DNA of 64,000 nt from Opitutaceae bacterium. GTDB lineage: Bacteria > Verrucomicrobiota > Verrucomicrobiia > Opitutales > Opitutaceae. Position 1 is the stretch's first letter. Every line of letters begins with the position of its first letter. This document shows positions 22,801-37,611 of this stretch, piece after piece. The stretch is from the NCBI GenBank assembly GCA_003151495.1, contig PLXR01000161.1, positions 189-64,188 of the forward strand, in the 5' to 3' direction. The notes below the pieces were generated by a model that ran no database searches, was not told the origin of the DNA, and saw only the letters and a list, made by a program, of their open reading frames with translations. The position numbers were made by a program, and so were the translations under genes.

Positions 22801-23693
22801 TTCGAGGCGCCTCCTGTGTCCGCCGTCGACCAGAGCCTTAGGGCCGAATAGTCCGCGACGGCACCGTGGGGGACCGGCTTCCGGAGCGTCGCGAGGCGTT
22901 GGTCCTCGGCCCCGCGGGCGCGAACGGCGGCCGAATCGTTAAGCAGCGCCGATTCGGCAAGCAACTGCTCGTCCTTTGACTTCTCACGGGTTCCGGACGA
23001 GGCCCGATCCTGGCGGTCCGAAAGCTCGAGGTCGTCCAGGATGGCCCGGCGCCGGGTGTCCATGACCTGGTTCTGCGACTGGAGCTGACTGATCTCGGCC
23101 AGGAACGCCTGCTTCTCGGATTCCGTCGTCGAGCGCTTGAACCGTCCCCAGGCCAGGGTGAGTTCCGAGGCGAGCGCGTACCGGGCGGCCTGTTCCGATT
23201 CGATCTGCCCCTGGAGCTGGGCCGCGGACGAGGCGCCGCGCGCCAGGGCCTCGTACAGCGAGGGGTCGCGCGCCCGCTCCGACCCGAACACCTGCATCGT
23301 GACGCCCGCGCCGCTTTCCTTGAGCAGGTCCGCCGCGCCCTTCCGCCGGGCCGAGGCATCCATCGCCTGCCACGCCTGAAGCAGCTGCGCGTCGGTCTTC
23401 GCCCCCGCCGCAAGGAGGGCGAACTGGTCCGATATCCCCTCCAAGCCGGGAACCGCGCCGACCGCTGCCTTCGGATCGCCCGCGAAGGCCCTGAGTTCCC
23501 CAACGGTTCGCAGCGTCCCCGTCGCCGCGGCCAGCTGATCATTGAGCCTTTGAAGCTCGGCCGCCCAGTTGGCGGCCTCCGCGGGATTCGCGATCACGGT
23601 CACGAACGAGGTGTCGGCGAAGCCGAGGAACCCGCGCGAGACGGAGCACAAGGCGACCGCCAGGCAGGCCGAGGCGATCGGGCGGGTATTCAT
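22797..23693 (-). CDS. VirB5/TrbJ-like secreted helical protein
   Basis: 298 residues from ATG 23693, overlapping the lipoprotein stop as ATGA. It has an N-terminal signal-like segment (IASACLAVALCSVSRGFLGFA), so it is periplasmic. Long helical and coiled-coil-prone stretches follow (WAAELQRLNDQLAAATGTLR, TTESEKQAFLAEISQLQSQN). The pattern of a short export signal, ANPAEAANW and then Gln/Leu helices is typical of TrbJ/VirB5 minor pilus components. The C-terminus is polar. Assignment rests on pattern and on place in the operon, not on a diagnostic motif. Confidence 0.65.
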   Translation of the reverse strand: MNTRPIASACLAVALCSVSRGFLGFADTSFVTVIANPAEAANWAAELQRLNDQLAAATGTLRTVGELRAFAGDPKAAVGAVPGLEGISDQFALLAAGAKTDAQLLQAWQAMDASARRKGAADLLKESGAGVTMQVFGSERARDPSLYEALARGASSAAQLQGQIESEQAARYALASELTLAWGRFKRSTTESEKQAFLAEISQLQSQNQVMDTRRRAILDDLELSDRQDRASSGTREKSKDEQLLAESALLNDSAAVRARGAEDQRLATLRKPVPHGAVADYSALRLWSTADTGGASN

Positions 23694-23995
23694 GGGCCGG
23701 GACCTCCCGCCGGCACGGGCGAGGGAACGAACACGGGCACCCCGATGGACTCGGGGGCGAGCCGGCGCCCGTCGCGGGCCGTGCCAGACTCCTCCCAGCT
23801 GTAGTACTCTACCCGCCCGGCCGGACCCCGGCTGCCCGGCTTCTCGAGCGCCTGCCTGGCCCAGTAGAGGCGCTTGACCGCGTCGGCGGCGCCGGCGGCG
23901 TAGCCTTCCTCGTAGGCCCTGCGCTCGGTCCTGCCCGGGGCCGCCAGGCAGCCGGAGAGCGCGAGCCCGAGTACCATCGCGGATGCCGCCCTCAT
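23690..23995 (-). CDS. Small lipoprotein of the T4SS-like operon
   Basis: 101 residues. The N-terminus AASAMVLGLALSGCLAA contains a lipobox (LSGC), so the mature protein should be a lipid-anchored envelope protein starting at Cys16. A short helix, RAYEEGYAAGAADAVKRLYWARQ, follows, then a Pro/Gly-rich C-terminus. It overlaps the ATPase gene stop and the next start, both as ATGA. By size and place it could play the part of VirB7, the outer-membrane lipoprotein of T4SS, but there is no sequence signature for that. Confidence 0.75.
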   Translation of the reverse strand: MRAASAMVLGLALSGCLAAPGRTERRAYEEGYAAGAADAVKRLYWARQALEKPGSRGPAGRVEYYSWEESGTARDGRRLAPESIGVPVFVPSPVPAGGPGP

Positions 23996-26718
23996 TCCGG
24001 CTTCCTCCCCGACTCCGCAAGCACGCCCTCGTAGACCGAGGGATGCCTCCCGAGCGCCGCCGTCCTCCCGTCAAACACGGCGCCCGAGGACTCGGCGACG
24101 TAGAGCATGGCCGGGTCAATCTCGACGCGGACCGTCCCGCAGACGGGTACGGCGGACTCCCGGGAGAAGTACGTGAAATACGAGGCCTTCCTCGCGCCGT
24201 GCTGGTGCTCCACGAGCGGGTGCTGCCCGATCGCCCTCTGCGCCGCTCCGGGCAGCCCGATCACGGCCCCGATCCTCTTCACCTGGTCGGCGTTGTTCTG
24301 GCGCATCAGGAAGTACTGCTTGCACTGCCCAAGCAGGAGGTCCGTGAGGGAGGGATCGATATCGTCGATCTGTGAAGGCTCCTGAAAGGCCCCTATGAAG
24401 ACGCAGCGGTACTTTCGCATCTGTGCCAGGAGCTCCTTCACGAATTCCGTCGCGCCCGGGATGAGAAGTACCCTCCTCAGCTCGTCGAGTAGCATGACCT
24501 TTGACTGGGCGCGCGGCAGCGTGAGGATGTGTTGGCGGACGTGGTCGAAGACCACGTATCCGGCAAGCTCCTTGAGTGTGCCCTCGGGAAGCCGGCTCGT
24601 GTCCATGTGCAGGCCCCTTCCGCGCACGTCCATGTTTGTCGGGCCGTCAATGAAACCGCCTACCACCCCGCCTGACCGCAGTCCCTTCCCGAGTTCGGAC
24701 GAAAGAAAATCAAGTTCGGCCGTGACGGCGGCGCTCCTGTGGTGGGGCAGCCTGCCATGTCTCATGAGCGCGACAAGGCCGTCGAAGCGGGGATACTCGC
24801 CGGCGCCCAGGAGGCTGAATGCCATCGAGTCGATGTTCCTGCGGCCCCGGGGCAGCATCGAGCTGCGAAGGATCTCGTCCTCAGTAAGAGACCCGACCAG
24901 CTCCGCCGCAGCCGCGGGGTCGACCCTCTCGAGCTCCTGCAGCGCGAGGCAGCCATCCAGGATGTCGTCGTCACCGCGCCGCAGCCTCTCGGCCGCGAGC
25001 GCCCTCCTCGCAAGCGTCCTCCAGCGCCCCTCGTCGGCGTTTTTCCAATCCTCTGCGCAGTCCTCGAAATGGCACCGTACGTATTCCCCAATGAGGCCCT
25101 CCCGGCGCTTGTTCCGATCCTCATCCCTGGAGATCCCCACGAGCTTCATGCACGTCCTGACGACCCGCGCCACCGTCGACGACGTCAGCGGCAGCCCCAG
25201 CGTGTCGAAGGGGTTCAGCGTGATGTCTCCGGACTCCCTCAGGACAAGGCTCTGCATGCCGCAGAGCTGCGCCTGGGTCACAAAGGCCAATCCCTCCTCC
25301 TGGTAGAACCTGTAGGCCCAGTGGCTGTCGGTCTGGCTCATGAGGTCGATCAGGAACGCCGTCTTTCCGGAGCCGTTGACCCCCACGGCGATCGAGTGCT
25401 GCGGGGTGCCGTTCGCGGTGACCAGGCGCACGCCGACGACGCTGCCGCCCGGACTGTCGTACAAGGCCTGCGCCTCGTCGAGGTGCCCGGTGAACGTCGA
25501 GGATATCGGCAGCAGGTCCGCGAGGTTGTGGTTCTCCACATAGATGTCCCATCCCCGGTATGTGCCGCCCAGGTTCCCGGGCATCGTCTCGTAAAATAGG
25601 TTGCGCGCCTGCGCGTGGTTGTTCACCTGCATGAATTCGGCCCCGTCTATGCCCTGGAGGGCGGTTCGCATCGCAAGGGCCTTCGCCGCGATGCCCTCCG
25701 CGGTGTCGCTCCACACCCGGATTGTGAAAAGCAGGTTGAACGGGATCGTCACCGACGAGAGGAGCGACTCGATCCTACCCTGGCGAAGCCGGATGTCGTT
25801 CTCCACACCGGCAGCGCGGCGGTCCGCCAGGAACGCGCTCAGCTCGTCGACCTCGCGGCGCAATCGGTCGATCTCGCCGCCCACCGGGAGGGGACGGATC
25901 CCAAGCGAGATGTAGGCCCCGCGGTTCACCGCGTCCAGCACGGGCAGCAGCATGCCCGGCCTGGTACCCCTGGGCAGCTCGCGCATGACGAACAGGGCGT
26001 GATAGTTCCCGTCGAAGTAGAGGAGGCTGCCCCGCTCGGCACCGTCCCTGGACGCGAACACGTCGATGTCGCTGCGCATGCAGTTCGCCCTGACGGACCG
26101 GCTCGAATCGAAACCGCCCAGGGCGCCGGCTCTTGTCCCGGCGAACAACCTTCCAAGGCTTGGATTGAGGAACCTTCGGAGATGGAGAGCGTGGGCGCAG
26201 GTGTCCATCGGCGTCCAGCGGCCCAGCGGGTGGACCATGCCAAGCATCCTGAGCTGCGAGGCGAGGCCGGCATCAGCCTGCCGCAGGTACGATTCGCATG
26301 CCTGGATGGACCTCACGTCCCTGGCTGCCAGCCCCTCGCACGTCCTCCCGACGTAGACGTACACCTGCTCGCGGCGCAGGCTGCCCTCGGCGAGCCTCTG
26401 GCCGTAGTAGGTCCTCCGCACGGCCCTTGTCCTGCGGCACCACGGCACGGCGTCGCCCGTCGTGCCTGAATACGACTCAAGAGCCAGCTCGAAGTCATCC
26501 TCTACCGTCCAGTTGACCTGCAGCGCAGCGGACGAGCCCAGGAGGGCCAGAAGATGCGCGCTCTGCCTGCGCAGGTCCAGTATCGTGCGGTTGTCGGCGC
26601 TTCGAAGGTCCGGAACCTCGACGGAGGCGCCTCGCGACAGGCAGGTCCGTGAGTCCAACTGGGGGCCCCACCAGAGCATGTCGCGCTCGAACCAGCCCAC
26701 GGGAAAGGACCTGGCCAT
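23992..26718 (-). CDS. VirB4/TraC-like type IV secretion ATPase
   Basis: 908 residues. ATPase that powers pilus assembly or substrate transfer at the inner membrane. Walker A GVNGSGKT is at residues 446-453 and Walker B VMLLDE at about 741-746, followed by RKYRCVFIGAFQEPSQIDD as in the VirB4 C-terminal domain. NLADLLPISSTFTGH before the P-loop and the LNPFD motif after it (about 501-505) are also VirB4-like. The N-terminal half is long and divergent. The gene lies nine bases after the VirB3-like gene, in the usual B3-B4 order. No relaxase, VirD4 coupling protein or VirB8-B11 gene is seen in the window. Confidence 0.88.
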   Translation of the reverse strand: MARSFPVGWFERDMLWWGPQLDSRTCLSRGASVEVPDLRSADNRTILDLRRQSAHLLALLGSSAALQVNWTVEDDFELALESYSGTTGDAVPWCRRTRAVRRTYYGQRLAEGSLRREQVYVYVGRTCEGLAARDVRSIQACESYLRQADAGLASQLRMLGMVHPLGRWTPMDTCAHALHLRRFLNPSLGRLFAGTRAGALGGFDSSRSVRANCMRSDIDVFASRDGAERGSLLYFDGNYHALFVMRELPRGTRPGMLLPVLDAVNRGAYISLGIRPLPVGGEIDRLRREVDELSAFLADRRAAGVENDIRLRQGRIESLLSSVTIPFNLLFTIRVWSDTAEGIAAKALAMRTALQGIDGAEFMQVNNHAQARNLFYETMPGNLGGTYRGWDIYVENHNLADLLPISSTFTGHLDEAQALYDSPGGSVVGVRLVTANGTPQHSIAVGVNGSGKTAFLIDLMSQTDSHWAYRFYQEEGLAFVTQAQLCGMQSLVLRESGDITLNPFDTLGLPLTSSTVARVVRTCMKLVGISRDEDRNKRREGLIGEYVRCHFEDCAEDWKNADEGRWRTLARRALAAERLRRGDDDILDGCLALQELERVDPAAAAELVGSLTEDEILRSSMLPRGRRNIDSMAFSLLGAGEYPRFDGLVALMRHGRLPHHRSAAVTAELDFLSSELGKGLRSGGVVGGFIDGPTNMDVRGRGLHMDTSRLPEGTLKELAGYVVFDHVRQHILTLPRAQSKVMLLDELRRVLLIPGATEFVKELLAQMRKYRCVFIGAFQEPSQIDDIDPSLTDLLLGQCKQYFLMRQNNADQVKRIGAVIGLPGAAQRAIGQHPLVEHQHGARKASYFTYFSRESAVPVCGTVRVEIDPAMLYVAESSGAVFDGRTAALGRHPSVYEGVLAESGRKPE

Positions 26719-26727
26719 GCTCGCCCC

Positions 26728-27207
26728 TCAGGAGCCGCCGCTCGAGCCGCGAATCACACCCCGCGGATGTTCCAGATCGCCCGGGCGCTCCGGCCCGGAA
26801 GCCGCGGTTGCATCGAGGGCAACGCGCGGAATCACGGGAAAGCAGCGCAGCGGGGGATCCGCAAAGTCGAGGCGCAGGCCCAAGAGCGTCGACCACGTGT
26901 CTCCCTTGAAATGGGGAGGCCTGCCCATCACGAGGAACCTCAAATAGCCAAATCCCGCCGCGAACGGGGTCAGAGCGACGAGGGTATTGGTGATCCAATG
27001 GCGGCCGCCGGCCGTCCCGCCGATGAACAGCTTGAGCCCGATCAAAACGCTGAGGACGATACCCGCGAACATCGGCCAGAGGTCGTTGAATCCGATCCCG
27101 TCGATGCCAAGGTACCCCACCCTGGCCCTCCGGCCGGTGTTGCTGGGCGTGTAAGGAAGCGCTGGCTCCTGGGCCTCGGGTGACATGGGCGGCGGTCGTT
27201 GGCTCAC
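26728..27207 (-). CDS. VirB3-like membrane protein
   Basis: 159 residues from GTG 27207, overlapping the preceding stop as GTGA. A short proline-rich cytoplasmic start is followed by two hydrophobic stretches (WPMFAGIVLSVLIGLKLF and ITNTLVALTPFAAGFGYLRFLVM), as in VirB3, and then GRPPHFKGDTW and a polar tail. VirB3 is a small inner-membrane partner of VirB4, and this gene directly precedes the VirB4-like ATPase. The call depends on topology and order. Confidence 0.68.
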   Translation of the reverse strand: MSQRPPPMSPEAQEPALPYTPSNTGRRARVGYLGIDGIGFNDLWPMFAGIVLSVLIGLKLFIGGTAGGRHWITNTLVALTPFAAGFGYLRFLVMGRPPHFKGDTWSTLLGLRLDFADPPLRCFPVIPRVALDATAASGPERPGDLEHPRGVIRGSSGGS

Positions 27208-27488
27208 CAGGCGGGAAGGGTCCCGAGGGTCCAGACCGGGTTAATGATCCCTATTCTTATCGAGAACCAATACACGCCGGCGGAAATGGCGGGAATTCCG
27301 ATCGCCCACGCCGCCTCCTCGAGCTTGTCCTGCTTGTCCTGGGCCCGGTAGGCCCGCTGCGCGTGCTTTATCCCCTGCCATACCGAACCGGCCAATCCGA
27401 GGGTGAATAGCCAGCCCAGAACATCTGTGGCCTGGAATGCGGCGGCCAGGGCGGGTTTGAAGAATGAGGTTTCCATGTTGTGAGACAT
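27204..27488 (-). CDS. VirB2-like small membrane protein (candidate pilin)
   Basis: 94 residues from ATG 27488. Two hydrophobic segments (VLGWLFTLGLAGSVWQGI and AAWAIGIPAISAGVYWFSI) flank a charged helix (YRAQDKQDKLEEA). This helical hairpin is the form of VirB2/TrbC pilins, although a classical long signal peptide is missing. It is the first gene of the T4SS-like operon. A 186-bp spacer separates it from the divergent acyltransferase gene and must contain the operon promoter. Confidence 0.62.
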   Translation of the reverse strand: MSHNMETSFFKPALAAAFQATDVLGWLFTLGLAGSVWQGIKHAQRAYRAQDKQDKLEEAAWAIGIPAISAGVYWFSIRIGIINPVWTLGTLPAW

Positions 27489-27674
27489 GTCCTTTTTGCT
27501 GTGTTAGCAAGAACTTTCTCGTGCCCAGGGGAAGATTGCCGCATTGAGGTTGCCCTCCGTCCGTGTCCGCTCGAAATTGCGGCCCGTCCAGTCTACCGCG
27601 CAAAGGCCCAATAGCCGGGACAGTGTCGGTCAATGCGAACGGGGACCACTCCAAGCAATCCAATCTGAAACCCC

Positions 27675-28847
27675 GTGCCGCCCGAGGAGAAAACAGACCA
27701 TGATCCGTCAGCGGCAAGGACCCCGGCGGCCGGCCAGGCCGCGGCCCGCATAAGCTACCCGGATGTGCTCAGGGGCATCGCCATACTCCTGGTTATTTTT
27801 ACCCACGTCGGGCAGAGGGCCCAGCAGGGCAGCATGGTCGCGGCGCTCTCGGGATTCGGCCAGCTCGGCGTCCAGCTCTTCTTCCTGGTGTCGGGCTTCG
27901 CCCTGACGCTCGCGTGGTCGAACCGAAGGGAATGGTCGCCGGCCGTCACACGCTCCTTCTTTGTGCGACGCTGGTTCCGGATTGCGCCCGCCTATTACAC
28001 AGCCGTTGTCGGCTACTTTCTCGTCCGCTTGGCCTTGCGCTACTACGGGCCCCAGACTCACGGTGTGACGCCGCTCGACATGTACCGACCGACAGTAGTC
28101 GTGGCCAACCTCATCTTCGCGAATGGGTTTTGGGCCTCGGCGCAGAATTCCATTGTGCCCGGCGGGTGGTCCATCGCCGCGGAGTTCTTCTTCTACCTTC
28201 TGTTCCCGATCATCGTGACGCGATCATTTCCGGCGTTGATCGTATGCGCGCTGGCCATTCCCGCCGCAGTTGCGGCCGCCGCGCTCCGATACCACTCGAT
28301 TGGCGTCGCGCCGATAAACGACTCCTTCCTATACTTCTACCCGGTCATCCACCTCCCCTGCTTCGTCTCCGGCATCATTCTCCAGAAGAACCTTGGGGCC
28401 ATCAACAGGGGGAATTCCTACGTGGCCCTGGGAATTCTCGGCCTCTGCGGCGCAGCGGCAGTAGCGCTCATGTGGCAGTCGGGCTTCGGAGGCAACCTGT
28501 CCTTCCTGCTTGTCCCGGGCCTGGCCGCCTTTCCATTTGCATGGCTCCTGGTGGCTTCGAGCCGATCGTGGCTGGGCGATTCTGCGCCGCTGCGATCGAT
28601 CGGGGAGCGCAGTTTTTCGATGTACCTCAACCACTTCTTCTTCGTTAACGTGATGTCGCTGCTCGCTGGGCAAAAGCCCCAGAGCACCTCAGCAGTGCTG
28701 ATCGGGCTCGTGGTCATCATCGCCGTCTCGTACGCCGCGGCATTCCTTACCTACAAGTACATCGAGCTGCCATTCGTGGCCATCGGGAGGCGCCTCACGC
28801 GGGGCGCGGCGGCCGCGAGGACGCAAGCTGAACCCGCTCGCGGGTAG
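27675..28847 (+). CDS. Acyltransferase family 3 membrane protein
   Basis: 390 residues from GTG 27675; no better start is in frame. Integral membrane enzyme that O-acetylates or otherwise O-acylates surface sugars. The signature is near the start: YPDVLRGIAILLVIFTHV (the His is the presumed catalytic residue), then FGQLGVQLFFLVSGFALTLAW and RRWFRIAPAYYTAV. About ten membrane helices follow, ending YKYIELPFVAIGRRL, the usual C-terminal form. The gene is divergent from the T4SS-like operon and points towards the TIR island. Its substrate might be the polysaccharide encoded from 32 kb on, but this is inference. Confidence 0.92.
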   Translation: MPPEEKTDHDPSAARTPAAGQAAARISYPDVLRGIAILLVIFTHVGQRAQQGSMVAALSGFGQLGVQLFFLVSGFALTLAWSNRREWSPAVTRSFFVRRWFRIAPAYYTAVVGYFLVRLALRYYGPQTHGVTPLDMYRPTVVVANLIFANGFWASAQNSIVPGGWSIAAEFFFYLLFPIIVTRSFPALIVCALAIPAAVAAAALRYHSIGVAPINDSFLYFYPVIHLPCFVSGIILQKNLGAINRGNSYVALGILGLCGAAAVALMWQSGFGGNLSFLLVPGLAAFPFAWLLVASSRSWLGDSAPLRSIGERSFSMYLNHFFFVNVMSLLAGQKPQSTSAVLIGLVVIIAVSYAAAFLTYKYIELPFVAIGRRLTRGAAAARTQAEPARG

Positions 28848-29352
28848 GTAACGATCCTGAAGTTGTCCCCTTCGTTCCCCGGCCTCCAGCGAACCATCTC
28901 CCGCCGGCACGGAGTGATTCGCCTCAAGGAACTGCAGCCACCGGGATTGTCCGCGAACCTCCGCTGCTCTGATAATGCGCGCCTCCCGACGGCCATTCGG
29001 CCCATGTAGAGTGAGGCCGGCTCGATCCCTCTAGGAAGGCGGCGGCGCGCGCCCGCCGAGCAGCGGCGTTTCCAAGAATCTCCTCGATGCGGGCCCCAGC
29101 CCGAGTTGCGTTCCGGTAACGCTCGTTCCTAAGTCGCTGGCTCCGAAATGGTGCGGTCGCCGAGGATCGAATCCGGTGCTCGCTCGTTTTGCAAGCCAGC
29201 GACCGGTCAATAAGATCCGGGATTCCGTCGCAAGTCCCATATTTGCATGAGTTGCACGAGTCTGCAGGAGGTTGCACCAAGCGGCACCAATGTTGGCAGG
29301 AATTGAACAGGAATACCGGGTGCGCAACGGCCGCGTTGCTCGACTCGATTTC
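28848..29352. other. Non-coding region with a tRNA-3'-like sequence
   Basis: A 505-bp gap between the convergent acyltransferase and TIR genes. Short frames on the minus strand (for example 28924-29280) have no family resemblance and could be shadows or relics. The region carries the tRNA-like sequence at 29149-29205 and, at its right end, short tandem words around GTTGCAC. No terminator with a T-run was recognised. Confidence 0.45.
29149..29205 (-). pseudogene. tRNA 3'-half-like sequence (degenerate), possible att remnant
   Basis: On the minus strand a T-arm-like element (CCGGATTCGATCCTCGG, one weak pair) is followed by CGACCGC, A and CCA. It is preceded by an anticodon-arm-like segment with loop TTGCAAA and only three of five stem pairs. 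No matching 5' acceptor or D-arm is present. The final CCGCACCATTTC is identical to the end of tRNA-Gly at 31596 and its flank, giving a 12-bp direct repeat (plus strand GAAATGGTGCGG at 29145 and 31592). This fits the scar left when an element integrates into the 3' end of a tRNA gene. Confidence 0.5.
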
Positions 29353-31293
29353 TCAGCTCCGGGACCCTGTTGGCCCGAGGGGCGTCGCGTTCGCTGGCTC
29401 CGCGATCAGGACCTTGAACCTCGGATCGCTGCGAATCGAATCATACGAGGGATCGAGTCGAAGCACCTGCCGCGTCAGCAGGACCGCTCCACTCGGCAAG
29501 CCGATCAGTCCGGGTATCAGCGCAATGGCCTCATCGGTCCGTCCCAGCAATATCAGCAACCCCAACGCCCCAACGCTTGACCGTCGCCACCCATCCCCCT
29601 GGTCCTGCTCGATCCGCACGAAGACCCGACCGGCCTCCTCGACCCTGCCCAGGCGGGCCAGCACCTCACAGCGTACGACCATTGAATCGAGGTCCCCTGC
29701 CGCTCCCCGGTTATCGAGCATTGCGAGCGCTGCCGCCCAGTCGGCTCTGGCGGCTTCCTCGTGTCCAGCCAGCAGCTGCGCCCGGCCCGTCAACACGAGC
29801 TTTGGGCCGGTGAAGTATATGTCCTCGATAAAGTCCCGCGGGACCGCGCGCAGGAAATCGAGGGCGTGTTCCGGCTCTCGCCGCCACAGCCAGACCAACG
29901 TGGCGATGTTGACGCCGCGATTCTGCTGCAGCGTCGCCACCGGCACCTTCGCAAGCGAATCCCGGGCACGGTCCACGTCCCCGTGAAAGACCAATTGGAG
30001 CAGGGTGATGATAAGGTAGGCCCGCCCGGTAGGGGCCTGCGCGAGGGACTGTTCCGCGGCTTTCTCCGCCTCCGGAAGCTTGCCTAGGAAATAGTAGGCG
30101 CTGGCCTTGTCGGTCAGTGCAATGGGATCGCCTCCCGGTAGGGCCGCGGCACGGTCGTAGAGCGCGAACGCGTCCTCGGTCTTCCCCAGATAGCGCTCAA
30201 GATGTCCGAAGTTGCGCAGGGCCCTCCTGTCGGTTGGATTCACCTTTAGGAGCGAAAGATACAGCTGTTCGGCTTCCGCGCGGCGCGCCGGCTGCCGGGT
30301 GAACGCAAGTGCGGTGGCGAGCTGAGCTTCATAGGAGGACGGGGACAGGGACAAAGCCCTTTGCGCGTCGCTCTCCAGGGCCTGAATTCGCGCCGCCGTA
30401 CGATCATGGCCGTAGCCGAGCATCACGTATGAAAGCTGCGCGCGCGCCGCCCAGACTTCCGCATCGGCGGGATCGAGCGCCACGGCCTTGTCGCAAATCT
30501 GCTCGGCCAGCAGCATGTTTTCCCGATTGGTTACATCGGGCGCCTCGAACAGCGCCCGCGCCTTCTGCACGAGCTGGCGGGCCTCCGAGAGGGGCGCAGC
30601 AGTAGGCAGGGGGCTGGTCGCCCCCTGCGTCCGATCGGCGCGCTCGGCGACGGTTTGCGCAATCGAAAGCATCTTGGCGATCTCCTCAGGGCTTCGCCGC
30701 GGCCTGAGTGCGATATATACCAACGCCCCGGCGAAGATCGCCAGGCCAATCCAAAGCGGCACCGGCAAGCGCGTGGCCTTTGCTGCGGGGGTCAGGCCGG
30801 CGAGGCGCCGGGTGCCGCCGCGCAGCGCATCATCTGCCGGATTCCCGGCGAGCAACCTCGCCACCCGCGCGGCAAGTTCGCCGGGGGTATCACCTAACCT
30901 CAGCCTGGTCCATTGCACTTCCTTGAACTTCTCCGGAACGCGTGCCGCGGCATCCGCGACATCCCCGATGACGACGGGGAAAAGGAACGGATGGTCGTCG
31001 GCGAGCAGGTGGGAGCGATCGACCGCCAGCTTCCATTCGAGCCGGAAATACCCTTCCGCGCGCGCCTGCGTGTTCCCGGAAATCACAGGCACAAAGAGCG
31101 CGCAATCCTTGATCTGCGCGCGGATCCTCCGGTCCCAGGCGTCGCCGCCGCGCAATTCGCTTTGGTCGAACCACACCTCGACCCCTGCGGCGCGGAGGGC
31201 ATCACAGATATTCCTGGCAGCCTCAGTGTCCTGCGAGGCGTAGCTAAGGAAGACCGCTCCACGTGGGGTAATGGTTTGTTCGATGTTAAGCAC
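29353..31293 (-). CDS. TIR domain-transmembrane-TPR protein
   Basis: 646 residues from GTG 31293. The TIR domain covers residues about 10-150: AVFLSYASQDTEAARNI, then VEVWFDQSELRGGDAWD and ALFVPVISGNT. In GYFRLEWKLAVD, Glu86 is at the position of the catalytic Glu of NAD-cleaving TIR domains. A single membrane helix follows (VPLWIGLAIFAGALVYIAL, about 178-197). The rest, to about 600, is tetratricopeptide-like repeats (for example AVALDPADAEVWAARAQL, LKVNPTDRRALRNFGHLERY). Such proteins are common in Verrucomicrobia and may be signalling or defence proteins; the function is not established. It is alone on its transcript and lies between tRNA-like sequences. NADase activity is inference. Confidence 0.9.
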   Translation of the reverse strand: MLNIEQTITPRGAVFLSYASQDTEAARNICDALRAAGVEVWFDQSELRGGDAWDRRIRAQIKDCALFVPVISGNTQARAEGYFRLEWKLAVDRSHLLADDHPFLFPVVIGDVADAAARVPEKFKEVQWTRLRLGDTPGELAARVARLLAGNPADDALRGGTRRLAGLTPAAKATRLPVPLWIGLAIFAGALVYIALRPRRSPEEIAKMLSIAQTVAERADRTQGATSPLPTAAPLSEARQLVQKARALFEAPDVTNRENMLLAEQICDKAVALDPADAEVWAARAQLSYVMLGYGHDRTAARIQALESDAQRALSLSPSSYEAQLATALAFTRQPARRAEAEQLYLSLLKVNPTDRRALRNFGHLERYLGKTEDAFALYDRAAALPGGDPIALTDKASAYYFLGKLPEAEKAAEQSLAQAPTGRAYLIITLLQLVFHGDVDRARDSLAKVPVATLQQNRGVNIATLVWLWRREPEHALDFLRAVPRDFIEDIYFTGPKLVLTGRAQLLAGHEEAARADWAAALAMLDNRGAAGDLDSMVVRCEVLARLGRVEEAGRVFVRIEQDQGDGWRRSSVGALGLLILLGRTDEAIALIPGLIGLPSGAVLLTRQVLRLDPSYDSIRSDPRFKVLIAEPANATPLGPTGSRS

Positions 31294-31362
31294 GTGCCTA
31301 AGGTGCCGAATCTGCGAACGGGGCGTGTCGCTGGCCAGTCCAAAGCCCCCGTTTCCCCAAGA

Positions 31363-31412
31363 TGGTGCCGGCTGTCGGGGTTGAACCGGCCACGATCCGG
31401 CAACTGGCGGCC
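31363..31412 (-). pseudogene. Second tRNA 3'-end-like sequence
   Basis: On the minus strand GCCGG-TTCAACC-CCGAC forms a T-arm with one mismatch and is followed by A, GCCGGCA and CCA, as at the end of a tRNA. The segment before it does not fold into a proper anticodon arm and there is no 5' half. It lies about 70 bases upstream of the TIR start and could be a second integration scar or a relic tRNA. Confidence 0.42.
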
Positions 31413-31419
31413 ATAAAGT

Positions 31420-31566
31420 GTTAAACGCACGCTCAGTGAAGTGTGCCTAAAACTGCCGAAAGACCTCTGCCCACGATTGTGTTTTCGAACGCGCGTTTAA
31501 TCCGTTTAACAAACGGTTTTCTTTAAAAAGCTATGACGTAATAGCTACTACGATTCTGTTAAACGC
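31420..31566. repeat. Four copies of a 9-mer GTTAAACGC/GCGTTTAAC
   Basis: GTTAAACGC occurs exactly at 31420-31428 and 31558-31566. The reverse form occurs with one mismatch at 31493-31501 (GCGTTTAAT) and 31502-31510 (CCGTTTAAC). The copy at 31502 is half of an inverted repeat CCGTTT-AAC-AAACGG (31502-31516). All lie within 150 bp of AT-rich DNA between the TIR gene and tRNA-Gly. This looks like a multi-site protein-binding region such as arm-type sites, iterons or operators. Confidence 0.6.
31529..31546. promoter_or_regulatory. 18-bp near-perfect palindrome
   Basis: AGCTAT-G-ACGT-A-ATAGCT, palindromic at 16 of 18 positions, lies inside the repeat region upstream of the TIR gene and next to tRNA-Gly. 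It has the form of an operator for a dimeric regulator; none is encoded beside it. Confidence 0.5.
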
Positions 31567-31595
31567 TGTGGCTGCCATTCGAATTGGCCTTGAAA

Positions 31596-31670
31596 TGGTG
31601 CGGGTGCGGGGAATCGAACCCCGATTTCAAGCTTGGGAAGCTCACGTGATAGCCGTTATACTACACCCGC
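31596..31670 (-). tRNA. tRNA-Gly (anticodon CCC)
   Basis: 75 bases with encoded CCA. Acceptor GCGGGTG pairs with CACCCGC. The anticodon arm TGAGC-TTCCCAA-GCTTG pairs fully, allowing two G-T pairs, and gives anticodon CCC. The T-arm is CGGGG-TTCGATT-CCCCG. The D-stem has a mismatch. The 3' end is the left end of a repeat shared with 29145-29156. Confidence 0.95.
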
Positions 31671-31964: not shown

Positions 31965-32816
31965 GTGTCCAGAACCTCTCCTCCCACACAAATTCCCGCG
32001 ACAAACGAGCTCGTCCTCCAGGCGGGCCGTATGGAAGCCCACTACTGGAGGGACCTCTGGTACTATCGCGAGCTCCTGGGTTTCCTGGCCTGGAGGGACG
32101 TGAAGGTCCGTTACCAGCAGACTTTCCTCGGGACGGCGTGGGCTGTGGTGCAGCCGCTTACGACTGTCGTCATCTTCTGGTTCGTCTTCGGACACCTCGC
32201 CAAGATGCCCTCGAGCGGCTCGTCCTACTTCATCGTTGTCATGGTCGGCCAGCTCGCCTGGCAGCTCTTTGCCAACACCCTTGGCAACACTAGCGGCAGC
32301 CTGGTCGGCAGCGCCCAGCTGATCTCGAAGGTGTACTTCCCGCGGCTGATCGTTCCCCTGTCCACGGTCCTGGTAGCGCTCATAGACTTCGCGGTAGTTT
32401 TTGTGATCTACGTCATCGCCGCGGTCTGTACGCGTACCATGCCCGATGCACGGATACTCTGGCTGCCCTGCTTCATTCTCCTGGCCCTGCTGCTGGCCCT
32501 GGGGCTGGGGCTCTGGCTGGCAGCGCTCACGGTACGTTTTCGCGACTTCAGGATCCTCGTGCCCTTCCTCCTCCAGATCGGCATATTTGCCACTCCGGTA
32601 GGCTACCAGACCAACTACCTTTCGACCTGGAAGGAGATTCTCGCATTGAACCCGATGACGGGGGTGATCGACGCGTTCCGCTGGAGCATGCTTGGTGCCC
32701 CGGACGGATTCGCATGGTATAGCTTCAGCTTCACGCTCGTGTGGTCGGCGATCCTGGTCTCCAGCGGAATCTGGTATTTTCGCACCACCGAGAAGACGTT
32801 CGCCGATGACATCTAG
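31965..32816 (+). CDS. ABC-2 type polysaccharide exporter, permease
   Basis: 283 residues from GTG 31965. Inner-membrane subunit of an O-antigen or capsule exporter (Wzm/KpsM type). The N-terminal cytoplasmic part WYYRELLGFLAWRDVKVRYQQ is the usual family start. Six membrane helices follow (for example TVVIFWFVFGHLAKM, LIDFAVVFVIYVIAAVC, LLALLLALGLGLWLAALTV). LNPMTGVIDAFRWSMLG is the conserved segment before the last helices. The ATPase gene begins two bases after its stop. It moves lipid-linked polysaccharide across the membrane and is the first gene of the cluster. Confidence 0.94.
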   Translation: MSRTSPPTQIPATNELVLQAGRMEAHYWRDLWYYRELLGFLAWRDVKVRYQQTFLGTAWAVVQPLTTVVIFWFVFGHLAKMPSSGSSYFIVVMVGQLAWQLFANTLGNTSGSLVGSAQLISKVYFPRLIVPLSTVLVALIDFAVVFVIYVIAAVCTRTMPDARILWLPCFILLALLLALGLGLWLAALTVRFRDFRILVPFLLQIGIFATPVGYQTNYLSTWKEILALNPMTGVIDAFRWSMLGAPDGFAWYSFSFTLVWSAILVSSGIWYFRTTEKTFADDI

Positions 32817-32818
32817 CG

Positions 32819-34039
32819 ATGAATGACCCGGTCATCAGGGTGGAGAACCTCTCAAAACTCTACCGCATCAGCCACCTCGCGAACCAGCGGACCGTGCGCG
32901 ACGCGGTTCATCACGGCCTCAGGCTGGTATGGAGACGCCTGAGGTGGAACACGCGGCTGAAGCGCGAGGAGTTCTGGGCACTGCGCGACCTGAACTTCGA
33001 GATAGCGAAGGGCGAGGTCGTCGGGATCATCGGAAGGAACGGCGCGGGCAAATCCACGCTGCTCAAGGTGCTTTCGAGAATAACGGAGCCCACAACGGGA
33101 CGCATCACGCTCCGGGGCCGCGTGGCGAGCCTGCTTGAGGTCGGCACCGGCTTCCATCCCGAGCTGAGCGGCCGGGACAACATATACCTCAACGGAGCCA
33201 TCCACGGGCTGACCAGGGCCGAGATCAGCCGCAAGTTCGACCAGATCGTGGAGTTCGCGGAGGTCTCGCGCTTCCTCGACACCCCGGTCAAGCGCTACAG
33301 CAGCGGGATGTACGTGCGCCTTGCCTTCGCAGTCGCCGCGCACCTCGAGCCGGACATCCTAATCGTTGACGAGGTGCTCGCGGTGGGCGACGCCACGTTC
33401 CAGAAGAAATGTCTCGGGAAGATCAAGGAGGTCTCGAGCACCGAGGGGCGCACCGTGCTGTTTGTGAGCCACAATCTGTCCTCGGTTCGCCAGCTCTGCA
33501 CGCGGTCGATCCTGCTGGACCAGGGCCGCCTTGTCTTTGACGGGCCCCCGAACGCCGCCATCGCCGCGTACACGCGCCAGGACAAGACAAAGGCCAGCTA
33601 CCGGCACATAGCCGGCGACGGCGCCGCGCGGATAACCGCGATCAGGATGCCGAATGACGGAGGGGGCGACGCCGTCTATCCAATCTTTGGAGAGGTTCGC
33701 ATCGAGATCCACTTCGAGGCCAAGCCGCAGGCAGGAAGCCTCGAGTTCTTCCTCCTCGTGTACTCGGATGACGGCGAGTGCCTCGCCGCCAGCTTCCAAA
33801 CCGACAGCGGGGCCAGGGTGCGCGCGGACGACCGGCGGCAGAGCGTCTCGGTTACCTTCAAGAATCCGTTCGCGCCCGGGCGCTACATGGTCTCGGCCGG
33901 CATCTTTGACGCCTACCGCCAGTTCCACGACTGGGTTGAGTTCGCCGAGGCCTTCGAGGTCGTGCCCGGCTTTGCCGACGGCAGGGCGTTTGACCAGCGG
34001 CTCGGGCAGGTGTCCCTATCGGCAACATGGTCCCCATGA
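32819..34039 (+). CDS. ABC exporter ATPase with C-terminal carbohydrate-binding domain (Wzt-like)
   Basis: 406 residues. The N-terminal nucleotide-binding domain has Walker A GRNGAGKST, the signature YSSGMYVRLAF, Walker B ILIVDEVLAVGD, and SHNLSS with the switch His. The loop LLEVGTGFHPELSGRDNIYLN is typical of polysaccharide ATPases. Residues about 255-406 form a beta-rich extension like the substrate-recognising domain of Wzt (FGEVRIEIHFEAKP, PFAPGRYMVSAGIFD). That domain usually recognises a modified end of the O-antigen, so export here may require a terminal modification such as methylation. The stop overlaps the next start as ATGA. Confidence 0.94.
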   Translation: MNDPVIRVENLSKLYRISHLANQRTVRDAVHHGLRLVWRRLRWNTRLKREEFWALRDLNFEIAKGEVVGIIGRNGAGKSTLLKVLSRITEPTTGRITLRGRVASLLEVGTGFHPELSGRDNIYLNGAIHGLTRAEISRKFDQIVEFAEVSRFLDTPVKRYSSGMYVRLAFAVAAHLEPDILIVDEVLAVGDATFQKKCLGKIKEVSSTEGRTVLFVSHNLSSVRQLCTRSILLDQGRLVFDGPPNAAIAAYTRQDKTKASYRHIAGDGAARITAIRMPNDGGGDAVYPIFGEVRIEIHFEAKPQAGSLEFFLLVYSDDGECLAASFQTDSGARVRADDRRQSVSVTFKNPFAPGRYMVSAGIFDAYRQFHDWVEFAEAFEVVPGFADGRAFDQRLGQVSLSATWSP

Positions 34040-34524
34040 CGAGCAGTCTCCCCATCTGGAAGCGTCTGGTTCTCCGCTTGGACAGGTGGTCCCAGCATAT
34101 CCGCGCCGAGGGCCTCCGACGGGGCTTCGCGGAGTGCGGGCGCGACGTCTCGATACAATGGCCGGTCGTGATCAACGGCGCAGACCACCTTCGGGTCGGC
34201 AACGACGTCTCGATCAACGCCTTTGTCCACATCTGGGCGCAGGGAGGCGTCACGATCGGTGACTCGACCCTGATCGCCAGCCACGTGGCGATCACCTCAC
34301 TGACCCATCCGCAGGACTCGGCCAAGTTCTCCGATAGCGTGGTCTCCAAGCAGGTCGTGATCGGCAGCAACGTATGGATAGGGTCCCATGCGGTCATAAT
34401 GCCCGGAGTCAGGATCGGGGACGGGGCGATCGTCGGGGCCGGGGCCGTAGTCTTGCGCGACGTGCCGGCAGGAGACGTTGTTGCGGGGGTCCCGGCAGTC
34501 TCCATCCGGCGCCCGAATCCGTAA
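34036..34524 (+). CDS. Hexapeptide-repeat acyltransferase
   Basis: 162 residues from ATG 34036, which overlaps the ABC ATPase stop as ATGA; an ATG three codons earlier is possible. It is a left-handed beta-helix enzyme of the maltose/nodulation O-acetyltransferase type. Hexapeptide repeats run through VGNDVSINAFVHIWAQGG, the catalytic-type His lies in TSLTHPQDS, and the end is IGSNVWIGSHAVIMPGVRIGDGAIV. It probably O-acetylates a sugar of the polysaccharide. Confidence 0.9.
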   Translation: MTSSLPIWKRLVLRLDRWSQHIRAEGLRRGFAECGRDVSIQWPVVINGADHLRVGNDVSINAFVHIWAQGGVTIGDSTLIASHVAITSLTHPQDSAKFSDSVVSKQVVIGSNVWIGSHAVIMPGVRIGDGAIVGAGAVVLRDVPAGDVVAGVPAVSIRRPNP

Positions 34525-34627
34525 ACCATGCGCGGCCAGCCCATGGGAACTCGGCACTCTCCTTCCCTCGCAGCCCTCGCGCGCGGTCCAGGGGCGGCTT
34601 CGGCCGCGAAACCCGGGTGCCGAGCGA

Positions 34628-35605
34628 ATGGGGCCGCCCCGGTGGCGGCCGTACCCGCCTAGCGCTCTCCGATACTTGGAATCCCGGGAAAAACCAAACC
34701 TTGCCAGGCTTCCTCCCGCTCCTCCGGGCCGGGTGGGCTGGCCATGGACGGTCGAATCCGCGGTGCCTGCCGGAGCCGACCTGGCCGCGCTGCCGCGGAT
34801 AACCGTGGTCACGCCGAGTTACCAGCAGGCGGATTTCGTCGAGGAATGCCTCCGGTCGGTCCTGCTGCAGGGATATCCCAACCTGGAGTATGTCGTCATG
34901 GACGGCGGCTCGTCCGACGGCTCGGCGGAGATCATCTCCCGTTACGCCGCCTTCCTGGACCACTGGCAGTCGCAGCCGGACGCGGGCCAGGGCAACGCCA
35001 TCAACCAGGGATTCGCCCGCGCGACGGGCGAGATCATCGGCTGGATAAACAGCGACGACATGCTTCTTCCGGGCGCCCTGTTCAGCGTGGCCAGGGCCTT
35101 CCTGAGCGGGCGGCCCGACATCGTCTACGGCGACGCGCTCAACGCGTTTGAGGACGACCGGACCCTCCAGTACTGGCAGGGCTATTGGGTTATCCCCTCG
35201 TTTCTCCAGTTCGGGGGGGTGATTTCCTCGCATGCGGTGTTCTGGCGGCGCTCGATCCACGTCCCCCTTTGGGAGGAATTGAACTGCAACGTCGACGGCG
35301 AGCTGTGGCAGCGCCTCGTTCCGGGGCACCGCCTCAAGTACCTGCCCCGGCCGCTGGGGGTCTGCCGCATCCACGGCGACACGAAGAGCAACGCCGAGCG
35401 CTGGCGCGAGAAATGGCGGCAGGACGACACCAAGATATGGGGCCGTCACGGGCGCCCGACGGACAGCCGGCTGTTCCGGCACTGGTTCGCCAGAAGCCAA
35501 CGCATCTTCAAGTGGGCCAGCTGGATGAGGGACCGGGCCGGGAAGCGCTCAGTGATTTCCTCGTGCCAATGGACTGATCGGACCTGGAGGGGCCCGAGGC
35601 CATGA
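34628..35605 (+). CDS. Glycosyltransferase family 2
   Basis: About 325 residues if started at ATG 34628. The frame is open from 34478, but the upstream codons overlap the acyltransferase gene. The N-terminal segment PPSALRYLESREKPNLARLP precedes the GT-A domain. That domain has ITVVTPSYQQADFVEECL, MDGGSSDGSAEII, and the DxD-like NSDDMLLPGA. FWRRSIHVPLWEELNCNVDGELW is in the acceptor half. It transfers a sugar from a nucleotide donor, probably in the cytoplasm on the growing lipid-linked unit. The donor is unknown. The stop overlaps the next start as ATGA. Confidence 0.88.
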   Translation: MGPPRWRPYPPSALRYLESREKPNLARLPPAPPGRVGWPWTVESAVPAGADLAALPRITVVTPSYQQADFVEECLRSVLLQGYPNLEYVVMDGGSSDGSAEIISRYAAFLDHWQSQPDAGQGNAINQGFARATGEIIGWINSDDMLLPGALFSVARAFLSGRPDIVYGDALNAFEDDRTLQYWQGYWVIPSFLQFGGVISSHAVFWRRSIHVPLWEELNCNVDGELWQRLVPGHRLKYLPRPLGVCRIHGDTKSNAERWREKWRQDDTKIWGRHGRPTDSRLFRHWFARSQRIFKWASWMRDRAGKRSVISSCQWTDRTWRGPRP

Positions 35606-36588
35606 GCGGCGCGGCCCCAACGCTCGCCCTCTGCGTGCCCGCGTACAACGCAACGGGCTTTCTCGCGCGGCTTCTCGAGGGAGCGCGCTCGCAGACCGTG
35701 CCGTTTGACGAGATCCTCGTCTACGACGACGCGAGCACGGACGGCACGGCCGAGCTCGCCCGAAGTCTCGGCGCGCAGGTGGTCCGCGGCACCGAAAACG
35801 TCGGCTGCTCCGCCGGCAAGAATGTCCTGGCCGCCCGCTGCTCCAGCACCTGGATTCATTTTCACGATGCGGACGACGCCCTGGAGCCCAACTTCGTGGA
35901 GGCCACACGCCGGTGGACCGCGATGCCCGGCGGTCCCGACGTCGTGTTCTTCAACTACCGCAGCCTGAGCCACGAGACAGGCGCGCCGCTGGGAAGCCGT
36001 GAATTCGACGGCGCCGCCCTGCGCAGCGACCCCCTGCGTTATTGCCTCACGGAGCAGATCAACCCGTTCTGCGGGATCTACCGCCGCGAACCCTTCCTCC
36101 TAGCGGGAGGCTGGGACGAGGACCGCAGGGTGCTCCAGAGCGAGGACCAGGCGGGTCACCTCCGGCTCGCGCTGGCGGGGCTCAAGTTCGACTCGGACCC
36201 GGCCTGCGTGGTCGTCAATTACATCCGCGCGGGCTCCATGACGACAAGCAACCTCCCTGGCGCGCAGCGCTCCACTTTCCAGGTGATGTCCAAGGCGGCC
36301 GCCTTGGTGCCGGCGAAGTACCTGCCCGTGGTGTCCGGGCGCCTCTGGGCGACAGCGGGCCTGTCGGCCGCATATGGAGACTGGGGCAACGCAGACCGTG
36401 CGGCGGCGCTCGCACTCAGGCTGACGGGCGGGGCGCCCCCATCCGGGGCAGCATGGTTCCGGTGGGTCGCGGCCCGCCGGCCCCAGCTGGCCCTTCGCGC
36501 AAGGGAGAGGCTCATCCGGGTCTTTCGGCCCTCCGCGCGCGCCGACCCCGTCTACCACCGCGTCCCGACGATCGCCCCCGACTCGTGA
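35602..36588 (+). CDS. Glycosyltransferase family 2
   Basis: 328 residues. GT-A fold with TLALCVPAYNATGFLARLL, VYDDASTDGTAELA, GCSAGKNVLAARC and the DxD motif in HFHDADDALEP. NPFCGIYRREPFLLAGGWDEDRRVLQSED carries the ED of the C-terminal catalytic region. The C-terminal part is helical and basic. The start overlaps the previous stop, and a 60-bp gap follows. Confidence 0.92.
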   Translation: MSGAAPTLALCVPAYNATGFLARLLEGARSQTVPFDEILVYDDASTDGTAELARSLGAQVVRGTENVGCSAGKNVLAARCSSTWIHFHDADDALEPNFVEATRRWTAMPGGPDVVFFNYRSLSHETGAPLGSREFDGAALRSDPLRYCLTEQINPFCGIYRREPFLLAGGWDEDRRVLQSEDQAGHLRLALAGLKFDSDPACVVVNYIRAGSMTTSNLPGAQRSTFQVMSKAAALVPAKYLPVVSGRLWATAGLSAAYGDWGNADRAAALALRLTGGAPPSGAAWFRWVAARRPQLALRARERLIRVFRPSARADPVYHRVPTIAPDS

Positions 36589-36648
36589 GCTCGCCATGCC
36601 CTGACCGCGCCGCCATGGTTTCCGCCACCCGCTGAAGCTCCAAGCAAC

Positions 36649-37611
36649 ATGGATCCCCTAGTCTCTGTAGTAGTCCCCTGCCACAATGCGGTTTCGTGGC
36701 TCGAGGCCGCTATCTCGTCCGTACGGGCGCAGACGTGGACCCGCATCGAGACCATCCTCGTGGACGACGGATCCGTTGACGGGTCAGGGGAGCTTGCCGA
36801 TCGCCTGGCCGGACCCGACATCCGAGTCCTGCACCAGGAAAAAAAGGGACAGTGCGCTGCCCTCAACGCGGGCCTTGAAAGCGCGCAGGGGGATTTCATC
36901 CAGTACCTGGACGCGGACGACCTCCTCGCCCCGGAGAAGGTCTCGATACAGCTTGCTCGGCTGCGCGACGAACCCCCGGGCTGGATAGCCTCGGGCGCGT
37001 GGGCCCGGTTCCAGGACGACCCCTCCGCTGCGGTATTCGAGGCCGAGCCGGTGTGGCGGGATCTCGCCCCGGTCGATTGGCTGGTCACTTCCTGGACGGG
37101 AGGGGGCATGATGCACGGGGCCGCATGGCTCTGCACCCGAAGCGTTGTCAATTCGGCCGGTCCGTGGAATGAGTCCCTCACCCTGATCAATGACCTGGAC
37201 TATTTCAGCAGGCTGCTGCTGGCCAGCGGCGGCATCGCCTTCTGTCCGGGCGCCCGGACCTACTACCGGTCGAACGTCGCGGGCAGCCTGAGCCGGCAGA
37301 CCACTCGGGGCGCGTGGGAGTCGGCGTTCAAGGCGACCGAACTCAGCATAGGCGCGATCCTCGCCCGGGAGGATTCGACCCGCGTTCGCAAGGCATGCGC
37401 CGTCAACCTCCAGCGCCTCGTGTACGGCGCGTATCCTTCGGCACCCGACCTTGTCGCCGGGGCTGAGCGGCGCATCGCCGAGCTCGGCGGAACCGATCTC
37501 CCCCCGAGCGGAGGAGCCGCTTTCCTGAAGCTGGCGGGGGTCTTCGGCTGGAAGTTCGCCCGCCGGGCGCAGCTGGTCGGACGGCGCCTTGGAGGGAGGG
37601 GAGCAACATGA
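36649..37611 (+). CDS. Glycosyltransferase family 2
   Basis: 320 residues. GT-A domain with LVSVVVPCHNAVSWLEAAI, VDDGSVDGSGELA, and DxD in YLDADDLLAPEKV. The acceptor region has GGMMHGAAWLCTRSVVNSAGPWNESL and LINDLDYFSRLLLASGG. The C-terminal end is basic (FARRAQLVGRRLGGR), consistent with membrane association. The stop overlaps the next start as ATGA. Confidence 0.92.
   Translation: MDPLVSVVVPCHNAVSWLEAAISSVRAQTWTRIETILVDDGSVDGSGELADRLAGPDIRVLHQEKKGQCAALNAGLESAQGDFIQYLDADDLLAPEKVSIQLARLRDEPPGWIASGAWARFQDDPSAAVFEAEPVWRDLAPVDWLVTSWTGGGMMHGAAWLCTRSVVNSAGPWNESLTLINDLDYFSRLLLASGGIAFCPGARTYYRSNVAGSLSRQTTRGAWESAFKATELSIGAILAREDSTRVRKACAVNLQRLVYGAYPSAPDLVAGAERRIAELGGTDLPPSGGAAFLKLAGVFGWKFARRAQLVGRRLGGRGAT

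Follow-up and report, generated by a model that had tools for sequence, protein, structure and literature searches.

How did a gene for a TIR-domain protein come to lie between an intact glycine tRNA gene and a fragment of another tRNA, in a segment that holds no integrase gene? The question arises from a 64,000-nt stretch of an Opitutaceae draft genome (G000, 80% complete), comprising positions 189-64188 of contig C57 (105,025 nt in total) and hereafter called the window. A preliminary description of this DNA had noted a 12-bp repeat on both sides of the TIR gene, one copy of it at the 3' end of tRNA-Gly, and proposed a mini-island integrated at the tRNA gene. The locus was compared with twelve relatives of the same genus (G001-G012) and, for one conserved unit end, with 200 genomes of the family. 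Behind tRNA-Gly(CCC) there are two units in series; a relative has an empty site at the same place, one of the two units recurs at a different tRNA gene of another species, and the end of the other unit recurs with other cargo. The segment is probably a small genomic island 3' of tRNA-Gly(CCC), in which both integrase-less units would end in attachment sites served by a tyrosine recombinase acting in trans.

Two units behind tRNA-Gly(CCC)

The repeat GAAATGGTGCGG is exact at both reported places (29145-29156 and 31592-31603) and has no further copy in the window, even with one mismatch permitted. By itself the 12-mer is modest evidence: shuffled sequences gave a mean of 0.36 matches and contained at least two in 6 of 100 shuffles, and eight of its twelve bases, which read CCGCACCA on the tRNA strand, make up the acceptor end common to both glycine tRNAs, the extra bases being TTTC only. 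Both properties would suit a chance arrangement, in which unrelated tRNA pseudogenes happen to stand here and the TIR gene is a mere neighbour. The match can be extended to 37 nt at 76% identity. Ordinary tRNA similarity, which the preliminary description had named as a possible refutation, does explain those eight bases, but not the tRNA half as a whole, and the half rather than the 12-mer is the informative feature.

The degenerate tRNA half reported at the left copy is indeed present (29149-29176; 28 nt, 89% identity to the 3' half of tRNA-Gly(TCC), E 6e-6). In the final 24 nt it has six mismatches to tRNA-Gly(CCC), five to the tRNA-Gly(TCC) of G000 itself and two to that of the relatives; because it is closest to the relatives' tRNA-Gly(TCC) and not to the genome's own, it looks foreign, and the possibility that it is a copy of tRNA-Gly(CCC) was ruled out. 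A third tRNA 3' half, overlooked at first, lies at 31363-31393 and is of the tRNA-Thr(CGT) type (31 nt, 90% identity, E 3e-7), with one mismatch in its last 25 nt. Both halves stand behind tRNA-Gly(CCC), on the same strand and without 5' parts, and in the alignments their tRNA likeness begins abruptly at the T-stem and runs as far as the CCA. The tRNA-Gly(CCC) gene at 31596-31670 (minus strand) is the sole ARAGORN tRNA call in the window, in which Rfam likewise found nothing else above its gathering score. Because the halves come from other tRNAs (Thr and Gly-TCC), the segment consists of two units and not of one (Table 1). The 12-bp repeat is exact, but it does not appear to mark a simple attL/attR copy of tRNA-Gly(CCC): the far end is composed of a conserved unit end (R1) and a tRNA half, the near end is the intact tRNA with only 12 bp of identity, and the two sides differ in tRNA kind. 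In a tRNA-integrated island the 3' end of the target tRNA itself would be expected to recur as a direct repeat; it does not recur within the 31.6 kb downstream of tRNA-Gly(CCC), but it does at 20 other tRNA loci.

Table 1. Features of the island and of its conserved flanks, with positions in the window.
Feature	Positions	Strand	Basis
Secretion operon leader and start, conserved left flank	27348..27517	-	172-nt match at 75% in G008
Acyltransferase gene, missing at the empty site of G008	27675..28847	+	Pfam Acyl_transf_3
Left copy of the 12-bp repeat (CCA end of the half and TTTC)	29145..29156	+	Exact match
tRNA-Gly(TCC)-type 3' half closing unit 2, possible core site	29149..29176	-	28 nt, 89%
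R1, conserved end of unit 2, with short repeats TTGGTGC and GTGCAAC, possible arm-type sites	29231..29315	-	Common to the TIR unit of G002 and the toxin-antitoxin units of G005, G008, G010 and G000:C136
Cargo of unit 2, TIR - membrane segment - TPR protein, 646 aa	29353..31293	-	TIR_2 3.7e-20, TPRs
Unit 1, 234-bp non-coding module from the tRNA to the Thr-type half, with GTTTAAC-like repeats	31362..31595	-	95% match in G006:C107; repeats read directly
tRNA-Thr(CGT)-type 3' half (T-arm, acceptor strand, CCA) closing unit 1	31363..31393	-	31 nt, 90%, alignment
Right copy of the 12-bp repeat (CCA end of tRNA-Gly and TTTC)	31592..31603	+	Exact match
Intact tRNA-Gly(CCC), anchor of the island, CCA encoded	31596..31670	-	ARAGORN; Rfam RF00005 56.7 bits
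ABC-2 transporter gene, conserved right flank	31965..32816	+	80% aa identity to the gene next to this tRNA in G008

An empty site, called for by the preliminary description, was found in G008. Its contig C223 carries an identical tRNA-Gly(CCC) between the ABC-2 transporter gene (80% amino acid identity) and the gene that opens the type IV secretion operon (74% identity over 47 amino acids before the contig breaks off); the neighbours on either side correspond to those in the window, and the insert is missing. From the CCA of the tRNA to the conserved operon leader (172 nt, 75%) the distance is about 146 bp in G008 and 4.08 kb in the window. G002 has a tRNA-Gly(CCC) with just 76% identity, and the operon match starts 231 bp behind it; in G004 a different gene, read as an acyltransferase, occupies the same place, and in G010 and G007 the secretion operon lies on the opposite side of the tRNA. 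Because the relatives differ at tRNA-Gly(CCC), the TIR gene and the halves form a variable segment, most simply explained by insertion.

The content of the interval had been given as the TIR gene with its repeat-rich upstream DNA; the TIR-TPR gene was confirmed, but the upstream DNA proved to be a separate 234-bp unit with a tRNA half of its own. This module recurs in G006 (C107), with 95% identity over 234 nt, directly behind tRNA-Arg(CCT) and again with a Thr-type half at its far end. Among 70 alignment rows of at least 400 bp, drawn from the fetched stretches and partly duplicated through overlap, DNA shared by G000 and G006 had a mean identity of 73.6% and a best value of 87.5%, with none at 95%; the best row is itself a stretch behind tRNA-Thr. 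Because the module stands at 95% against this mean, the gene-less unit must lately have stood at two different tRNA genes in two species. A family-wide DNA search with the module yielded only G000 and G001 of this genus, and the search was rerun on the genus; the module is absent from the phage records searched.

Apart from the TIR gene of unit 2, no gene in either unit stood out from chance open reading frames (ORFs). The encoded protein contains a TIR domain (PF13676, TIR_2, 3.7e-20), to which solved TIR domains such as 7uxr and AbTIR match over about 60 residues; its PADLOC matches are to the TIR effector model and some TPR models, with partial coverage, and its membrane segment was read from the sequence and has no tool result behind it. 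The motif EGYFRxEW is invariant across six aligned relatives, and its Glu is presumably the catalytic residue. The TIR gene is plausible as defence cargo, and its product is likely a passenger that, to judge from the domain, would act as a phage-defence effector. No report of TIR-TPR proteins in Verrucomicrobia was found by literature search. About 170 nt after the TIR gene recur at the close of a G002 unit that also carries a TIR gene (79% over 169 nt), although the two proteins are merely 31-36% identical; the TIR gene of G002 is bracketed by two Gly(TCC)-type halves. This unit (G002:C11:5260-8892), with no intact tRNA in the 11 kb fetched, adjoins integrase and PIN genes and is an array away from any tRNA.

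Unit ends and tRNA halves across the genus

The first ~90 nt of the end of unit 2 also close units of about 0.6 kb that stand directly behind tRNA-Gly(TCC) in G010, G008, G005 and G000:C136. Their cargo is a toxin-antitoxin pair, for which a ParE-like toxin just under the Pfam cut-off (G000:C136) and a Phd-type antitoxin (G006:C70) were tested, the remaining assignments being read from the sequence. In G006:C70 a toxin-antitoxin unit and a TPR remnant devoid of TIR stand in series, each closed by an R1-type end. The further check proposed at the outset, whether the same repeat flanks other cargo, was positive: other TIR genes, toxin-antitoxin genes and unrelated genes lie between tRNA 3' halves in the relatives.

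A profile of R1, built from sequence alone out of six unit ends, was used to examine whether the end and the half go together. A set of 81 tRNA 3'-half sequences (28 nt) was compared with the 130 nt after R1 on the same strand, the best match being accepted at 20/28 or more. A tRNA half followed R1 in 10 of the 11 independent copies, i.e. those not used in the build, with up to 26/28 matching positions, and the best-fitting kinds were Arg(CCG) in five cases, Gly in three, and Ser and Pro in one each. None of 33 comparisons at three control positions (other strand, other side) passed, and one did among 150 random 130-nt stretches of the window. R1 and the half together would thereby resemble an attachment site with arm-type and core-type parts.

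Recurrence of a tRNA's own last 50 nt downstream was surveyed in the stretches behind tRNAs of G000 and G006. The stretches fetched include 75 tRNAs called by ARAGORN, a part of all tRNAs, of which 73 with at least 200 bp downstream were tested, many of them cut by contig ends. Copies of the 3' half were found on the same strand behind 9 of 38 tRNAs in G000 and 11 of 35 in G006 (20/73), and none on the other strand (0/73). In these counts a match of a tRNA-Ala of G006 (C41:185) was excluded as a neighbouring tRNA, which lowered the figure for this genome from twelve to eleven; of the two tRNA-Arg matches on G006:C107, one is called as an intact tRNA and the other is a half. Many of the halves are degenerate. 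The longest series follows the tRNA-His gene of G006, where the intact gene and 11 clear halves (31-61 nt, 91-100% identity) extend over 22 kb at a spacing of 1.0-4.9 kb, with a weak twelfth half (81%, 37 nt) beyond this stretch. The units between them carry PIN, Phd, RHH and PemK/MazF genes, two TIR genes, a kumamolisin-type protease, an IS4/5-type transposase and others, and their ends are related to each other, forming two families with their own short direct repeats and a likeness that reaches up to ~150 nt before the half. The protease of this array is 1350 aa long (G006:C73:29655-33707). Two look-alike ORF pairs of the same array (G006:C73:28120-29263 and 35290-36733) are possibly an undescribed toxin-antitoxin pair; the ORFs tested from them had no Pfam or PADLOC match.

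Rather than a lone mini-island, the tRNA-Gly(CCC) locus is one instance of something habitual in the genus, and other genera of the family show traces of it. The chance arrangement introduced above is highly improbable when set against the 20 of 73 forward-strand and 0 of 73 reverse-strand copies, the empty site in G008, the pairing of R1 with halves, and a control with reversed sequence around TIR genes (0/39 loci). In this last comparison, which covered the 39 TIR loci that were fetched and not every TIR match of the search, a tRNA or half lay within 3 kb of 13 loci; about seven of the 13 are intact tRNAs, and some three tRNAs would be expected near 39 loci at a density of one per 100 kb. 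TIR genes are hence enriched near tRNAs and halves, with a modest excess, and are not confined there.

Proposed movement of the units and competing explanations

The arrangement observed suggests the following course of events. The far end of each unit is a tRNA 3' half comprising T-arm, acceptor strand and CCA; in the TIR unit the conserved ~90 nt with short repeats come before it. These repeats would hold the arm domain of a recombinase and the tRNA half its core, and the tyrosine recombinase itself would be supplied either by the cell from another locus or by a visiting element. Such a recombinase could excise units as circles and insert them at tRNA 3' ends or at existing halves, and through repeated insertion the units would pile up. 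Exchange within the T-loop would replace the acceptor strand of the tRNA. As tRNA-Gly(CCC) has kept its own strand, the exchange point may instead lie at the CCA, where the 12-bp identity is found, or the units may have entered older halves that are now gone.

The element without an integrase that the preliminary description had postulated holds up in that the site is empty in a relative, the cargo varies, and none of the ten PF00589 matches of G000 lies on contig C57; it needs amendment in that there are two units with foreign halves. Matches to PF00589 between the tRNA and the last half occur at 4 of the 20 loci with own 3'-half copies, all in G006, and an ORF read as an integrase on G006:C5 makes a possible fifth. 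Integrase or integrase-like genes stand directly behind tRNA-Ser, tRNA-Ser, tRNA-Cys and tRNA-Pro on G006:C5, C77, C105 and C126, respectively, with halves further on. These integrases are candidates for moving the integrase-less units. Around the R1 copies examined, an integrase gene is close only in G002 (268 aa), and one in G204 lies ~13 kb off.

Several results weigh against movement by a recombinase acting in trans. No recombinase was tied to R1 ends when 14 integrase queries were run by tblastn and the surroundings of R1 were examined. The R1 profile marks 12 places in 8 of the 13 genomes of the genus and recurs in 11 of the 200 family genomes, six of this genus and five of others. Among the six sequences that built the profile, a half is recognisable in three and not in the other three. 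At the locus itself, tRNA-Gly(CCC) retains its own acceptor strand despite the foreign halves behind it, its own 3' half has no copy within 31.6 kb downstream, and no tRNA half was found in the stretch 27400-29145, which holds the acyltransferase gene and its outer side, though this gene too is absent from the empty site of G008. No excision was observed. Finally, at 26 of the 39 TIR loci the surrounding 3 kb contain neither a tRNA nor a half, and the idea that all TIR genes of the genus travel in tRNA-end units was ruled out on this ground.

Some of these points would fit a different history, in which tRNA islands with integrases of their own lost them by deletion, and what is left is cargo between old attachment sites that no longer moves. 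The integrase genes directly behind some tRNAs of the genus (the four loci of G006), the many degenerate halves and the three R1 build copies without a clear half speak for such dead remnants. This history is nevertheless rather unlikely, since two species whose shared DNA otherwise averages 74% identity have the 234-bp module at 95%, and at different tRNA genes, and since unit ends are alike where the cargo differs. Homologous or illegitimate recombination among tRNA genes and fragments, shuffling segments without any site-specific recombinase, could account for the Thr and Gly-TCC halves behind Gly-CCC, for the intact acceptor strand of the anchor tRNA and for the lack of a recombinase connected with the unit ends. 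Homologous recombination usually needs longer identity than the 12-30 nt present here, the tRNA likeness of the halves has a sharp start at the T-stem and stops at the CCA, and the repeats beside the half recur across genera, all of which make this explanation improbable, though less so than chance. Phages or plasmids as carriers of the units were also considered and rejected after searches of viral contigs, phage records and plasmids: the exact 23-base R1 pattern had no match and no TIR relative was confirmed in the viral contigs, and plasmid matches cover at most 21% of the TIR-TPR protein. Movement of integrase-less units by a tyrosine recombinase made elsewhere remains the preferred reading.

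Known tRNA-end elements and neighbouring genes

Integron cassettes and integrase-less attC clusters are arrays of short units on the same strand, each ending in a recombination site and often with toxin-antitoxin cargo. The Opitutaceae arrays share the same-strand order of short units, the site at the end of each and toxin-antitoxin cargo; in contrast to integrons, the site is a tRNA 3' half, the array begins at an intact tRNA, and no integrase heads 16 of the 20 loci (PF00589 in general; no search was made for IntI or folded attC). It is tempting, if doubtful, to go further and regard tRNA 3' halves in Opitutaceae as cassette recombination sites comparable to attC, at which a recombinase encoded elsewhere would recognise short repeats together with a T-arm/acceptor half. 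It would shuttle units of one or two genes, with TIR effectors, toxin-antitoxin pairs or other cargo, between the 3' ends of many tRNA genes and also across tRNA kinds, and so build arrays of about a dozen units. Tycheposons of Prochlorococcus are cargo elements at tRNA genes, 4-200 kb in size and with a tyrosine recombinase (in part after the passage on them in PMC10872708). Cargo at tRNA genes is the common trait, whereas the contig of the window has no PF00589 match, its interval measures 2.4 kb, and the units in general 0.2-5 kb.

A close likeness is to cis-mobilizable elements (CIMEs), whose tandem accretion is already known (PMC5704250, PMC3146451). As described there, the ssrA islands of Dehalococcoides stand in tandem behind one RNA gene, are bounded by copies of its 3' end, in many cases (15) lack an integration module, and use a serine recombinase (PMC3146451, PMC5704250). 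The Opitutaceae units share with them the tandem order behind an RNA gene, the 3'-end copies as bounds and the absence of an integration module; as against the Dehalococcoides islands in these accounts, they are mostly 1-5 kb long with one or two genes, use many tRNA genes, combine one unit end with several tRNA halves and bring foreign tRNA halves to one locus. Neither integration nor transfer genes are present in the two units of the window, the nearby secretion operon lying outside them and being conserved in relatives, and the units would work like CIMEs. Additive flexible genomic islands, with cassettes of variable size and recurring tRNA-end repeats, are described for Methylophilaceae (PMC10872708; cassettes of 330 bp-42 kb) and Alteromonas (PMC5217437); the passages available from these two papers concern one tRNA-Lys and a 20-bp repeat, and mention neither a shared repeat-rich unit end nor a change of tRNA. 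The Opitutaceae type of arrangement was not found in the literature searched. It is a variant of known tRNA-end islands, distinguished by very small units, the use of many tRNAs, one end with several kinds of half, and foreign halves at one locus.

Integrase-less tRNA islands are easily taken for debris; here the same ends persist across changing cargo, TIR and toxin-antitoxin genes alike, and the many integrase-less segments in relatives hint at a shared route for swapping single genes at tRNA ends. If a recombinase acting in trans is responsible, Verrucomicrobiota would have an integron-like exchange of single genes, defence genes included, and the signature of unit end plus half would find single-gene cargo overlooked by integrase-based methods.

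On the left of the island, the type IV secretion genes at 22797-27488 (minus strand) include a VirB4-like ATPase (23992-26718), and some of them are 72-99% identical in amino acid sequence to genes beside the tRNA-Gly(CCC) of relatives. An integrative and conjugative element (ICE) with the degenerate half as its attachment site was considered for these genes and ruled out, the first gene of the operon standing beside tRNA-Gly(CCC) in five relatives and VirB4 in four; because of this conservation, the secretion genes are chromosomal rather than a recent ICE. On the right, from 31965 to 37611 and beyond, genes for the ABC-2 transporter, an ABC ATPase, and acetyltransferase- and glycosyltransferase-like proteins, probably concerned with surface polysaccharide, are syntenic in G008. 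Elsewhere in the window, a very large hybrid histidine kinase of 1508 aa (7845-12371, minus strand) combines CHASE3, PAS, HisKA, receiver and Hpt domains. Finally, another contig of the same genome (G000:C99:9827-10734) carries six tightly spaced tRNA genes on one strand, several of them low-scoring, which resemble a phage or plasmid tRNA cluster.

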